DNA of 64,000 bases from Natronocalculus amylovorans (GTDB lineage Archaea > Halobacteriota > Halobacteria > Halobacteriales > Haloferacaceae), in NCBI RefSeq assembly GCF_023638035.1, contig NZ_JAKRVX010000002.1, forward strand, positions 434,001 to 498,000, written 5' to 3'. Below, piece by piece: positions 4,982 through 9,954 of the stretch. The position numbers and the translations under genes are program-made. Every line of letters begins with the position of its first letter. The stretch's first letter is position 1. The notes under the pieces are model-generated. The model searched no databases and was not told the DNA's origin. It was given only the letters and a program-made list of their open reading frames with translations.

Positions 4982-6301
4982 TTAGAATAATCCAACAGCG
5001 ACTGCAATCAGAACGGCACCACCTGCCCCACCGAGAGTCGCAAGGAAATTCACAGACTGATTGCCGAGCCGATCGCCTTCAACTGTGGCTCCTAAGACGC
5101 TGTCAACTGTGATTCCAACAATCCCACCCGCCGTGATTACACCTGCTAACACCAGTGTCTCAGCACCGGGAAGCACGGTCGCAGAAAGAATACCGATAAC
5201 TGCAGCACCAACAAGGCCAGCGAGTTCACCCTGCCATGTAACCGCACCATCAGTTCCTGGCTCAACAGGTTCAAGCGTCGTAATGAGTCGAGGTGTGTCA
5301 AACAGCCCGCCGATCTCACTGGAGAGCGTGTCACCAAGTGCTGTTGCAAGCGAACCGGAGAACGCAACTACAAAAAGAACCTCGGGGGCGGAAAGCTGAT
5401 CTGCCGCAGCAAACCCGAGCACTGCAACGAGTGCAACGGCAGAGTTTCCGAGAACGTTTCCAGTTCCACGCGCACCATCGTTCTCTTCAGCCACGCCGCG
5501 AGCAGATTTATCATCATATTTAAACTTTGAAGCAAGTGCTCCAGTGCCATAGAATGCAATGAGAACGGCGAACCAGCCAAAACCACCATAGACGATCGTA
5601 ATAAGTCCAAGCAAGACGCCGGTAAGCGCACCTGCGATCGAGGCAGTGCCGAGAGCGTAGGAGACGTAGCCAAGGAGGCCAGTGAGAACTACAGCAATGA
5701 GCAGGTAGGTTGGGTCAAGTGAGCCGGCGAGCGATTCGAGCCCCCAAAGTGCAATTCCAACAGTGAATAGCACAACCGGGTCATCACGCTCATACAGTAG
5801 CTCACGAAGGATCGCTGCAAGCAACACCGCGGCGATCGCAAGAAATGAAATAAGCGCCACATCAATCTCGCCGCGGAGTTGAACAGTGACGGCAGCCTGC
5901 CCAGCGACTGCAGCTGCTGCACCGACAATGAGAAATCCAACGACTGCTCGTAGTTCAGTTACATCAGCGATATCAAGGAGTTGCTTACCAAGGTTTCCAA
6001 ATGCAACACCAAATATTGTGGCTGTAAACACTGTTTCCGGCATCGAAAGCTGTGGAGCGGTCGAAAGTAGGGCAAGCCCTGCTGCGGCGAGTGCGAAGCC
6101 AGCAAGCCCGTTGAGACGTTGGTCTTGTCGATCTCCCGGTCGTGCAAACAGTTCGAACACGGGCCCGCTAGAGATGAGAAACGCGGCCGCAACTGCAATG
6201 AGCGCAAATGGTACGGCAGTTACGAGGCCCAGTGTTGGCGAAACCACGGCAATGCTCGCGACTGCTGCAAACGCTGCTGCTCGTCGAGGCCGTCCAGTCA
6301 C
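4982..6301 (-). CDS. DUF92 / VTE6-like polytopic membrane protein
   Basis: About 439 residues from a GTG at 6301, or 470 from an ATG at 6394. I prefer GTG because the first hydrophobic segment follows it directly and the extra 31 residues look non-conserved. It has about 12 membrane segments and the DUF92 signature in the C-terminal third, including A-L-G-D-T-L-S-S-E-I-G and the T-V-D-S-V-L-G-A motif. The family (COG1836) includes plant VTE6, a phytyl-phosphate kinase, so a role with isoprenoid phosphates is plausible. That fits its position: it is divergent from, and close to, a cis-prenyltransferase homologue at 6437. The function in archaea is not established as far as I know. Confidence 0.85.
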   Translation of the reverse strand: MTGRPRRAAAFAAVASIAVVSPTLGLVTAVPFALIAVAAAFLISSGPVFELFARPGDRQDQRLNGLAGFALAAAGLALLSTAPQLSMPETVFTATIFGVAFGNLGKQLLDIADVTELRAVVGFLIVGAAAAVAGQAAVTVQLRGEIDVALISFLAIAAVLLAAILRELLYERDDPVVLFTVGIALWGLESLAGSLDPTYLLIAVVLTGLLGYVSYALGTASIAGALTGVLLGLITIVYGGFGWFAVLIAFYGTGALASKFKYDDKSARGVAEENDGARGTGNVLGNSAVALVAVLGFAAADQLSAPEVLFVVAFSGSLATALGDTLSSEIGGLFDTPRLITTLEPVEPGTDGAVTWQGELAGLVGAAVIGILSATVLPGAETLVLAGVITAGGIVGITVDSVLGATVEGDRLGNQSVNFLATLGGAGGAVLIAVAVGLF

Positions 6302-6436
6302 ATCTGCGGATATCGTGGACTGACACTTAACCTTCCCGACATCCGAGTTCGCATCATCCAAAATAATGGATGTGTTTGTCACCCATGATGGCACTGCGGC
6401 GAAGCCATTATTCGATCGGATATCGTTAGATAGCGT

Positions 6437-7045
6437 GTGCGTTTATACAATGCCTATCTAGCATCTCGAATACGCCGACATGCTACTGCAGCGCCGACTC
6501 ATGTTGCAGTGATCCTCACAGAACGAGACCTGCTTGAAAGCGGGGCGTATGAGACGCTAAGCTCATTTTTCACGTGGGCATTTGAGTATGGTACCGATCG
6601 AGTTACGGTTTCTATCAGTGTGCTCGATAAAGCGGTTGTCCCCACACTCCAGCGTGAGTTGGAAACAATCTCTGCACCTGAGATGATCGCTGTTCGCGGG
6701 CCGAAGGATACCGAGCCGGTTGGAACCCCAATACAGATCAACATTGGACTCGGGGGCAAACACGAGTTTGCTGCAGCGGTCGCTCAACTTGCAACTGCGG
6801 TTGAAGCAGGAGAACTCTCACCAGATGAAATTGACGCGGATTCGATCGCCGATCGACTAGTGTTTCCCGATGAACCCGATCTGCTGATTAAAACCGGCGA
6901 AGAGCGGCTGTCTGACTTTATGATCTGGCAGTCGGTCTATTCGGAACTCTATTTTACGGATATTAATTGGCGAGATTTTCGAAAACGAGACTACCTTCGT
7001 GCAGTCTTGGATTATAAAGACAGACAACGGCGGTTCGGCCGATAA
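6437..7045 (+). CDS. cis-prenyltransferase homologue without catalytic Asp (probable accessory subunit)
   Basis: 202 residues, aligned over its whole length with undecaprenyl diphosphate synthases. Where catalytic enzymes have D-G-N-R after the first strand, this one reads A-V-I-L-T-E-R-D: the catalytic Asp is replaced by Thr28. By contrast the C-terminal half is strongly enzyme-like (E-L-Y-F-T-D near residue 170) and the protein ends in R-R-F-G-R, carrying the RxG motif that completes the active site across the dimer. The frame is intact. This distribution matches the NgBR/Nus1 type of accessory subunit. The catalytic partner, uppS, lies convergently 7 bases away. I infer a heteromeric enzyme; an inactive paralogue is the alternative. 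Confidence 0.8.
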   Translation: MRLYNAYLASRIRRHATAAPTHVAVILTERDLLESGAYETLSSFFTWAFEYGTDRVTVSISVLDKAVVPTLQRELETISAPEMIAVRGPKDTEPVGTPIQINIGLGGKHEFAAAVAQLATAVEAGELSPDEIDADSIADRLVFPDEPDLLIKTGEERLSDFMIWQSVYSELYFTDINWRDFRKRDYLRAVLDYKDRQRRFGR

Positions 7046-7052
7046 CAACGGA

Positions 7053-7988
7053 TTAATCTGCAGGCTCTGACTGGTGGACTTCGTTGTTAAGCTCTTCAGC
7101 AAGGACATCTCGATCTGCGTTTGGAAGATGTTCCTTGAGCCGTCTGGCGACCGATCGGGCCTCGTCAATCTCCACTTCTGCGACCGCTCGAACAAGTGCA
7201 ATTGCCCGCTTCGATCGCGTACGCTGCCATGAGTGTTCTCGTGATTCGTAGGTTCGGATTCCGCGAAGAAAGTCAATTTTTGAAAACTCAGGCCAGTACG
7301 GAGCACAAAAGTAGACTGCAGCCTCGTTACCGTTTGCATGCCATGGTAGAAAATTCGAGGTGCGTTCATCGCCACCGGTACGAATGATCAGATCGACATC
7401 TCTGACTGGTTGCCGGTAGAGTCGTGATTCGATTTCAGAAACGTCGACATTCTCTGCGCGGAGTGTTCCGGTCGCAACATCCGTTGCAACATCTCTTGCC
7501 GCTCGTAAGAGCTCGTTTCGGCCGCCATAGGCAAGTGCGATATTAAGTGTGAATCCAGAATAGCTCGCAGTTCGACGTTCAGCGTACTGGATTGCGTTCT
7601 GCACGCGTGTTGGGAGCTGTTCGATATCGCCGATCGCACGGATGCAGACGTTATCATCGTGGACCCGACCGGCATCAGCAAAATCATAGAGTTTTGATTC
7701 GATAAGATCGAACAGCGGCTCAAGCTCTTCTGGTGGCCGGTTGAAATTTTCTGTCGAGAATGCATATAAGGTAAGCTCCTCGACGCCAAGCTCCGCACAC
7801 CAGTCCAACACATCTTCTGTTGTGTCCGCACCAGCATGATGGCCTTTGTGTGGGTCTTTCCCGCTTGACCGTGCGTATCGGCGGTTCCCATCCTGAATAA
7901 TCGCAACGTGTGACGGAGCGGTCCCGATTTCTCTATCGAGAAGCCGCTCATACACGCGATATAGTTGCCGCCGAAGATACGAGCGCAT
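7053..7988 (-). CDS. uppS: cis-prenyltransferase catalytic subunit (polyprenyl diphosphate synthase)
   Basis: 311 residues. It makes long cis-polyprenyl diphosphates, in archaea the precursor of the dolichol-phosphate glycan carrier. The catalytic motif A-I-I-Q-D-G-N-R-R-Y-A is present (Asp33, Asn35, Arg36), as are the F-S-T-E-N-F motif near 78-83 and R-T-G-G near 204. The C-terminal part is unusual: the W-Q-x-A-Y-A-E-L-Y-F-T-D region is degenerate, the RxG motif is absent, and a charged tail of about 45 residues follows. That missing motif is supplied by the neighbouring homologue at 6437-7045. It acts at the membrane surface. The start ATG at 7988 aligns with the start of the paralogue. Confidence 0.93.
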   Translation of the reverse strand: MRSYLRRQLYRVYERLLDREIGTAPSHVAIIQDGNRRYARSSGKDPHKGHHAGADTTEDVLDWCAELGVEELTLYAFSTENFNRPPEELEPLFDLIESKLYDFADAGRVHDDNVCIRAIGDIEQLPTRVQNAIQYAERRTASYSGFTLNIALAYGGRNELLRAARDVATDVATGTLRAENVDVSEIESRLYRQPVRDVDLIIRTGGDERTSNFLPWHANGNEAAVYFCAPYWPEFSKIDFLRGIRTYESREHSWQRTRSKRAIALVRAVAEVEIDEARSVARRLKEHLPNADRDVLAEELNNEVHQSEPAD

Positions 7989-8022: not shown

Positions 8023-8682
8023 TTATGCTTCGTCTGTATTTTCATTGCCATGTTTGGGTGAAATCTCATCTGGATGCTGTAGTTCTGAGACCAATTTGTC
8101 TCCAGAGTAGGTCTGAACGCGATTGATCAAAACGCCCAACAGAAACCCAACAGTCCCAATTGCAAACGTAAACAGAAGTGAAAACAACAGCGAAAGCTGA
8201 AGTCTCACAACAATATCTCCCTGCGCGATCGGGCCGTACGGTGCGTTCACCATGTAGCCAAACACAGGAAACAGCACAAGTGAGAACGCAACAAATGCAC
8301 CATCATTTGCGTAGCCAGCGAGCGCAGCAAGAACGCCTAAAAGAAGCGACGGCCCAATCAAAAATAGCAACTCAGGCCCATCAACGACGCCTGTTACGCC
8401 ATACCCTGTAAGAACCAAAAGAACCGCACCAGTTGGGAGCCACGGATTCACATCACCCGCGTCAGAGAGAATGTAGATTGCCGCGACAACTGAAAGGATA
8501 AACGCCCCTGCAGCAGCGTACTGCATCGTTGTCGTTCCAACAGGATCACCGAGTCGTTCCCACAGTGCTGGAAGGGCTAAGGTCCCGAACGCGGTGAGCG
8601 TTAGCAGCCCGGAAATGGCCAGGATCTGACCTGCAAGTCGAAGGTTACGGCCAATAAGGAACCGAACCACAGACTGCGCCAT
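8023..8682 (-). CDS. polytopic membrane protein of unknown function
   Basis: 219 residues with six to seven hydrophobic segments starting near residue 17, and a charged, acidic C-terminal tail of about 25 residues likely in the cytoplasm. I recognise no catalytic or transport motif. It lies upstream of uppS on the same strand with a 34-base gap, so it may share a transcript with it. Haloarchaeal genomes contain many such family-specific membrane proteins; no function is proposed. Confidence 0.7.
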   Translation of the reverse strand: MAQSVVRFLIGRNLRLAGQILAISGLLTLTAFGTLALPALWERLGDPVGTTTMQYAAAGAFILSVVAAIYILSDAGDVNPWLPTGAVLLVLTGYGVTGVVDGPELLFLIGPSLLLGVLAALAGYANDGAFVAFSLVLFPVFGYMVNAPYGPIAQGDIVVRLQLSLLFSLLFTFAIGTVGFLLGVLINRVQTYSGDKLVSELQHPDEISPKHGNENTDEA

Positions 8683-8807: not shown

Positions 8808-9200
8808 ATGAGCAAGACACTCGATGATGATCTGTACAAGCGAACGAAAGCATTGCTCGAACCTGGTGAGATTGAACTTGTCGGAGCAATCGTCCACAGT
8901 GGGCTGACAAGCCAAGAGGATCTCGAGATGCACGAACTAACCGTTGACCTCAACGAGATTATCAGTGAACACGCTGGAAAAGGTGAGACATATATCTATG
9001 CAGGAAATGATAGCACCGACTTTGCATCAAACCAGTTCCAAGGGCTAACACTTGAGGATGAGGAGTTTGTGTGGGAGTGCCAGCAGCTGCTCCGTGATGG
9101 GACATTTAAACTAGTGTTCTATTATGAAGCAACCGCAGATCAGGAGGCGATCGTCAGTGCAATTGAGTCTCTCGGCTACGACGTAACGGCCGTTCCTTAG
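8808..9200 (+). CDS. conserved haloarchaeal protein (DUF5778-like)
   Basis: 130 acidic residues, no membrane segment or signal peptide. It begins M-S-K-T-L-D-D-D-L-Y-K-R and has an alternating helix/strand pattern ending in a ferredoxin-like hydrophobic strand (Y-D-V-T-A-V-P). The family assignment is from memory of similar haloarchaeal sequences and is not certain. Its stop overlaps the end of the convergent crcB gene by four bases. Confidence 0.7.
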   Translation: MSKTLDDDLYKRTKALLEPGEIELVGAIVHSGLTSQEDLEMHELTVDLNEIISEHAGKGETYIYAGNDSTDFASNQFQGLTLEDEEFVWECQQLLRDGTFKLVFYYEATADQEAIVSAIESLGYDVTAVP

Positions 9201-9544
9201 AGTCCAACGAGCAGCCACGCAAGCCCGATCGCCCCCAGGCTCAGCACAAGATTTCCAATCGCATTCGCGGCTGCTGCAGTGCGTTTTCCATCTTCAAAAA
9301 GCAGGATCGTCTGGACGCTGAATGAAGAGTAGGTTGTGAATGCACCACAAGCCCCAATTCCGATCAAAAGCATCGTGTCAGATGATGCACCACCAAACAC
9401 GAGCACGCCCAGCACAAAGCTCCCGATTACGTTGACAATAAGCGTCGCATACGGAAACTCGGTTGCGGGAACGTACTCACCAACGGCATATCGGAGCAGT
9501 GCACCGATCGCGCCACCGGTTCCGACGAGAAATGCAGGCTCCAT
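9197..9544 (-). CDS. crcB: fluoride channel subunit CrcB/Fluc (second of pair)
   Basis: 115 residues, four membrane segments. Fluc channels let fluoride leave the cell down its gradient. The family motifs are visible: G-A-I-G-A-L-L-R-Y (residues 11-19), the pore Asn38 in I-V-N-V-I-G-S-F, and the T-T-Y-S-S-F segment at 70-75. Its ATG overlaps the stop of the preceding crcB by one base, so the two are coupled. Archaeal and many bacterial genomes carry such pairs that form antiparallel heterodimers, and the pair is preceded by a probable fluoride riboswitch. Confidence 0.95.
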   Translation of the reverse strand: MEPAFLVGTGGAIGALLRYAVGEYVPATEFPYATLIVNVIGSFVLGVLVFGGASSDTMLLIGIGACGAFTTYSSFSVQTILLFEDGKRTAAAANAIGNLVLSLGAIGLAWLLVGL

Positions 9545-9954
9545 TATGAGGCCTCCATATCCGCCTCTGTCTCATCGGTCGGTTCGAGCCACTGAACGGT
9601 CCCACGGGCGAGAAAAACCGCCCCAAACCCACACACGTAACTCCCACTGATATACAACAGTGCAATCTCTGGATCGGTAACCGCATCCAAGACAAACATG
9701 CTATATGTCGTAAACGAAGAAAGAAATCCAGTCCCGAAAACAAGTCTTGAATTATCATGGATAACGTCGTCTCGAAGTGAATCGTACACGAGCACACCAA
9801 GTGCGAAGCTACCGACCACGTTGACAGCAAACGTCGATGTCAGCGATCCAGGAATCAGTACATCAACTGCGTATCGGGCATTTGCGCCTGCAAACCCGCC
9901 GATCGCAATCAGTAAAATCGGTTCAATGTTTCCAAGTAGCTGTCTCCGTCTCAT
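9544..9954 (-). CDS. crcB: fluoride channel subunit CrcB/Fluc (first of pair)
   Basis: 136 residues, four membrane segments after a short basic N-terminus. Family motifs: G-G-F-A-G-A-N-A-R-Y (19-28), V-N-V-V-G-S-F (44-50) and T-T-Y-S-M-F (82-87). The C-terminal tail is Glu/Asp-rich. Together with the second subunit it should build a dual-topology fluoride exporter. The start codon lies only about 10 bases past the 3' end of the riboswitch, so fluoride probably controls translation start or early elongation of this operon. Confidence 0.95.
   Translation of the reverse strand: MRRRQLLGNIEPILLIAIGGFAGANARYAVDVLIPGSLTSTFAVNVVGSFALGVLVYDSLRDDVIHDNSRLVFGTGFLSSFTTYSMFVLDAVTDPEIALLYISGSYVCGFGAVFLARGTVQWLEPTDETEADMEAS

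Follow-up and report, generated by a model that had tools for sequence, protein, structure and literature searches.

Two neighbouring genes of the haloarchaeon Natronocalculus amylovorans both belong to the cis-prenyltransferase (cis-PT) family, and each holds only one of two motifs that single-chain enzymes carry together. Do they encode two enzymes, or two subunits of one? Profile-based automatic annotation would call two uppS-like enzymes here; our analysis indicates that the pair is probably one enzyme, both in haloarchaea and in the whole phylum Halobacteriota. The stretch of DNA analysed (hereafter the window) comprises 64,000 nucleotides of contig NZ_JAKRVX010000002.1 (positions 434,001 to 498,000), and the two genes are referred to as short and long.

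Two convergent genes with complementary motifs

The features of the locus, in coordinates of the window, are the following.

4982..6319, minus strand: DUF92 (PF01940) membrane protein, PF01940 E 5.2e-56; divergent from the short gene
6437..7045, plus strand: short cis-PT gene, GTG at 6437 to stop at 7045; 202 aa
6518..6532, plus strand: codons of T28-E29-R30-D31-L32 (short), in place of the catalytic D-G-N-R-R in the joint alignment
7031..7042, plus strand: codons of R199-F200-G201-R202 (short), RxG and the single residue after it; C-terminus R-R-F-G-R
7053..7988, minus strand: long cis-PT gene, ATG at 7988 to stop at 7053; 311 aa
7056..7280, minus strand: C-terminal extension of the long protein (about residues 237-311), from DSSP of its AF2 model, with further helices at 275-287 and 290-303
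7878..7892, minus strand: codons of D33-G34-N35-R36-R37 (long), the catalytic, Mg-binding motif, from the translation

The two genes are convergent, with 7 bp between their stop codons, and a profile search identifies them as the only two PF01255 genes in their own genome. Both exceed the PF01255 cut-off of 27 bits and are thus members of the family: the long protein matches positions 1-216 of the profile (236.5 bits, E 3.4e-70), while the short protein matches with its C-terminal half only (positions 116-219; 90.7 bits, E 1.3e-25), the enzyme-like half that a preliminary description of this DNA had ascribed to it. Translation and alignment also bear out how that description read the two motifs. 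The short protein is devoid of D-G-N-R, having H-V-A-V-I-L-T28-E-R-D-L-L where single-chain enzymes have H-V-A-I-I-M-D-G-N-R-R, and ends in R-R-F-G-R; the long protein keeps D-G-N-R (Asp33) and lacks RxG, with S-W-Q at E. coli positions 242-244 in the joint alignment. Neither protein, then, combines D-G-N-R with RxG, as a homodimeric UppS does. The late motifs of the long protein had also been called degenerate, which proved mistaken: its IPP-diphosphate-binding residues R203, R209 and S211 (E. coli R194, R200 and S202) are intact, and its late differences are RxG and the W-H-A-N-G-N-E-A-A-V-Y-F stretch. We propose that the short protein is a non-catalytic, NgBR-like subunit donating its RxG tail, and the long protein a catalytic, DHDDS-like one.

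Beyond the pair, a predicted 219-aa protein (8023-8682, minus strand) has its gene 34 bp upstream of long, in the same direction and possibly in one operon with it; the protein matches nothing in Pfam or NCBIfam, and among 80 other loci none showed a relative of it next to the pair. Two adjacent genes for small membrane proteins of 115 and 136 aa (9197-9544 and 9544-9954, both minus strand) resemble, judged by eye only, a CrcB/Fluc fluoride-channel pair. Defence-system profiles gave no match.

Partition of the motifs across relatives

To place these motifs in context, we aligned 96 distinct shorts and 117 distinct longs, a phylum-wide sample, and numbered the joint alignment on E. coli UppS (its sequence taken from a PDB match). 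Among the shorts the D26 column holds Thr in 70, Ala in 9, Ser in 7 and Asp in 5, with other residues in the rest, and D-G-N-R occurs in 0 of 96. Retention of the catalytic Asp by relatives of the short protein, which the preliminary description had named as evidence against its reading, is thus seen as a lone residue at the T28 column of five distant shorts, none of which has D-G-N-R. R242 and G244 are present in all 96, and every one of these chains ends in exactly R-x-G-x, that is, one residue past the Gly. The longs are the complement: D26, G27, N28, R29 and R30 are kept in the 114 of 114 that cover these columns, R194, R200 and S202 are identical in 117 of 117, and RxG is found at 242-244 in none of the 117. 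Because this partition holds phylum-wide in so many distinct sequences of both types, chance is excluded as its source.

Haloarchaeal shorts share 57-74% identity over 26 genera and have ERDLL unchanged in all 26 sequences, and R199 and G201 are invariant in 50 phylum-wide shorts. The same is true of D33, G34, N35, R36, R37, R203, R209 and S211 in 49 phylum-wide longs, as well as of R36, E80, N81 and R84, which correspond to R37, E81, N82 and R85 of human DHDDS. These last four are also found in single-chain enzymes, so they indicate that the docking site is intact and are not specific to a heteromer. E. coli E213, which had seemed to be kept by the shorts alone, was set aside as a distinguishing residue, since its alignment in the long protein hinges on an insertion of two residues.

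Distribution in Halobacteriota and a single-chain control phylum

All 30 relatives sampled from across the families have the short gene. A survey of haloarchaeal genomes for co-occurrence of the two types, which the preliminary description had suggested, supports the pairing: the short gene is present in all 145 genomes (58 genera) and the long gene in 144, with PF01255 giving essentially two genes per genome. The sole genome with a short and no long gene (G087) is a 120-contig assembly. The idea of a special haloarchaeal case did not survive, since the same split extends across Halobacteriota. In this phylum 117 of 119 genomes have cis-PT genes, each at least two, in the pattern of one full-length gene ending before the end of the profile and another matching the profile in its C-terminal part alone, as far as position 219; in the remaining two genomes, of one genus, short and long are both absent. 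The split is therefore a fixed architecture common to the phylum and not peculiar to haloarchaea.

A few genomes depart from the simple pair. Some haloarchaea (G083, G077, G112 and G119; loci L262-L265 and L268-L271) have two long-type paralogues and one short gene, and both longs keep DGNRR and are without RxG; one short protein may serve two catalytic subunits there. One haloarchaeal genome has a third, divergent cis-PT (L277, G020:C1:478925-479599; PF01255 E 2e-29) of neither the long nor the short type, whose frame ends RRNEGR. An archaeal short gene also turned up on a contig labelled Lachnospiraceae bacterium (L234), probably a binning error in a metagenome-assembled genome.

Thermoplasmatota, whose genomes were reached through named loci among the matches of the short profile, served as a control. 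Fifty-nine of 61 genomes have cis-PT, and nearly all of these have one gene spanning profile positions 1-219. The 10 proteins read carry DGNRR and a terminal RRFG or RRYG plus one residue, all on one chain. Both motifs being present on these chains, the loss of RxG from the long protein accompanies the presence of the short one. The Thermoplasmata matches of the short profile had been considered as a wider occurrence of the split, which we rejected, since what had matched was the C-terminal half of single-chain enzymes.

Gene neighbourhood

Of 144 haloarchaeal genomes, 109 have short and long within 5 kb of each other, each time in convergent orientation and never on the same strand or divergent; the convergent arrangement recurs in several families outside the haloarchaea (loci L115-L134). 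For subunits of a single enzyme, convergence wherever the genes are close is an unusual layout; antisense or 3'-end regulation is possible. Convergent genes cannot share an operon, and the layout thus gives no guarantee of equimolar expression.

Many haloarchaeal families, as exemplified by Halobacterium salinarum (L183), preserve the gene order dnaG, DUF92, short, long. Throughout the haloarchaea, and in Methanoperedens and Methanothrix as well, the DUF92 gene is a conserved divergent neighbour of short, even with the long gene elsewhere (neighbouring loci are L165-L167, L170, L172-L174, L178, L199 and L213), and its product is a possible partner in polyprenyl-phosphate metabolism. The evolutionary rates of short and long covary (r 0.88; partial 0.62 given DUF92), a weak signal confounded by shared phylogeny.

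Predicted structures

Modelled as single chains with AF2, the short and long proteins both adopt the cis-PT fold. The short model (pLDDT 86) falls below 50 in its tail, residues 200-202, and is weak at about residues 150-170, as might be seen in a chain modelled without its partner. In the long model (pLDDT 88.7) a continuous helix, residues 237-271 by DSSP, runs through the place of RxG. The tail that follows R245 in the longs has a median length of 64 aa in haloarchaea vs 13 aa in other classes.

The best PDB match of the long model is human DHDDS from the heterotetramer (E 2.2e-23, 319 columns), with a TM of 0.67 and an rmsd of 13.6, the C-terminal helices being poorly superposed; its next matches are bacterial UppS, with a TM of 0.9 over the core. 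The 50 fold matches listed by Foldseek for the short model are generic cis-PTs and do not include NUS1.

Origin of the split

In the tree, 30 longs form one clade (support 100/99) that branches by archaeal classes and excludes the sequences of Thermoplasmatota, bacteria and humans. A second tree, built on about 100 C-terminal columns with the RxG columns removed, places 29 shorts in one clade (100/99) and 30 longs in another. Most simply, the trees point to one ancient split that dates from the base of Halobacteriota or earlier. The long branch of DHDDS groups with the single-chain enzymes and not with the longs, but a tree constrained to unite DHDDS and the longs is not rejected either (AU p 0.129). 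On a reading about as likely as not, a homodimeric cis-PT became an obligate two-chain enzyme through one ancient duplication in the ancestor of Halobacteriota, nearly every later lineage retained it, and the similar eukaryotic split arose separately, so that the same division of the active site evolved twice.

Proposed mechanism and alternative explanations

Short and long are very probably the two subunits of one obligate heteromeric cis-PT that makes polyprenyl diphosphate for dolichyl-phosphate carriers. The sharing of one active site by two chains, in the manner of NgBR and DHDDS, finds strong support at the level of sequence in conservation, in the one-to-one co-occurrence and synteny of the genes, and in the contrast with the single-chain control phylum; the physical complex, the insertion of the tail, the length of the product and its physiological role we infer. 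The long protein would bind the allylic diphosphate and Mg2+ through D33-G-N-R-R and the diphosphate of IPP through R203, R209 and S211, and could not supply an RxG of its own, its C-terminus running on as a helix. The short protein, its catalytic motif lost, would dock by the usual cis-PT dimer face, so that R199-x-G201 and the terminal carboxylate could enter the active site of the long protein and close it over IPP. Each heterodimer would thereby have one active site, in which an all-trans primer is elongated by successive cis additions. The predicted product is a polyprenyl diphosphate of the C50-C60 class, from which haloarchaea would derive the dolichyl phosphate that carries sugars for the N-glycosylation of their surface proteins.

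The long protein might instead be a self-sufficient homodimer, its active site closing with no need of RxG, and the short protein a separate regulator or membrane adaptor retained by chance. Methanosarcina mazei MM_0014 is active without RxG (PMC8131916), the long protein keeps all the other catalytic residues, and some haloarchaea have two longs for one short. MM_0014, however, has TLGG at its very C-terminus, where the longs have no Gly and the helix continues in the model, and an invariant RxG followed by exactly one residue in 96 shorts is unexpected of a non-catalytic tail. As the pair is moreover present or absent together and its M. mazei counterpart is reported to be heteromeric, we consider this reading improbable. 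That the short gene is a functionless degenerate paralogue or pseudogene, as the missing DGNRR and a Pfam match confined to the C-terminal half could imply, is scarcely credible for a gene found in every one of the 145 haloarchaea and in effectively all Halobacteriota sampled, with 57-74% identity and invariant residues across 26 haloarchaeal genera and no widespread frameshifts seen.

A further reading accepts the heteromer and assigns it another acceptor or donor reaction, such as irregular or O-prenyl transfer, in place of a polyprenyl diphosphate for glycosyl carriers. MM_0014 offers a precedent for such transfers (PMC8131916), but the genome has no other cis-PT genes, N-glycosylation in haloarchaea depends on dolichyl phosphate (PMC3871713), and the M. 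mazei pair is reported to make C45-50 chains, so that this reading is very unlikely. An obligate heteromer for carrier-lipid synthesis thus remains the preferred explanation.

Implications

A search of the open-access literature found no description of a haloarchaeal or phylum-wide heteromeric cis-PT. Within the searchable literature, then, the haloarchaeal case and the phylum-wide extent of the split appear new, the heteromeric enzyme of M. mazei having been reported already. Of greater interest than the haloarchaeal case itself are the phylum-wide fixation and a possible independent origin. If short and long are one enzyme, neither carrier-lipid synthesis nor N-glycosylation should proceed without the short gene. 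The archaeal pairs, small, soluble and without a membrane anchor, could serve as simple models for human NgBR/DHDDS, which causes disease when mutated, and the phylum offers hundreds of natural pairs in which to study the sharing of the tail and whether the split had one origin or two.

Comparison with known systems

Single-chain UppS of bacteria and Thermoplasmatota has the cis-PT fold and PF01255 domain in common with the pair; the long protein keeps its catalytic residues and the short protein its C-terminal half with RxG. The difference is that both motifs stand on one chain there and are split over two genes here.

The closest known system is that of M. mazei, where MM_0618 and MM_1083 are reported to form a heteromeric cis-PT with C45-50 products (Emi 2019, as cited in PMC8131916); the preliminary description had correctly named a Methanosarcina heteromer. 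Relatives in Methanosarcina, of the same phylum, have a long protein (D-G-N-R, no RxG) and a short one (RxG, no D-G-N-R), both within the same two clades as the genes of the window. In a Methanosarcina-like genome (G246) the set of cis-PTs is exactly three: a long (L081), a short with 75-84% identity to those of named Methanosarcina genomes (L135), and an LGG-ending copy of the TLGG type (L136). By clade, the window pair appears orthologous to the M. mazei pair, with MM_0618 and MM_1083 matched by elimination of the TLGG-type copy in this relative. The systems differ in that the pair is not adjacent in the Methanosarcina-like genomes examined and that the C-terminal extension is longer in the haloarchaeal long protein. 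MM_0014, which is able to carry out irregular and O-prenyl transfers (PMC8131916), resembles the long protein in lacking RxG, but is a separate third paralogue of about 220 residues that ends in TLGG and acts alone.

Human NgBR (NUS1)/DHDDS and yeast Nus1/Rer2 likewise pair a D-G-N-R chain without RxG with a non-catalytic chain. NgBR ends R290-L291-G292-K293, an R-x-G-x with spacing identical to that of the shorts; its tail enters the active site of DHDDS and its terminal carboxylate contacts R37 and R85, which together with E81 and N82 are contacts of the tail or substrate ligands (PMC7573591). Yeast Nus1 has Asn where RxG has Arg (PMC7573591). DHDDS has C-terminal helices, as does the long protein. 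Of the NgBR/DHDDS-type pair first proposed for this locus, the division of motifs stands, and the resemblance to the human subunits does not discriminate, a single-chain archaeal enzyme matching DHDDS equally well: DHDDS is the best PDB match of the long profile, which we rejected as a sign of heteromer kinship because DHDDS is matched very strongly by a single-chain Thermoplasmatota enzyme as well (207 bits, vs 152 bits for the long protein alone). The short profile, for its part, matches NUS1 at E 3e-12 vs 5e-34 for bacterial UppS, which argues against orthology with NUS1/NgBR. Starting near the catalytic domain, the short protein has no space for an N-terminal transmembrane part like that of NgBR, and it is much closer in sequence to single-chain cis-PTs.
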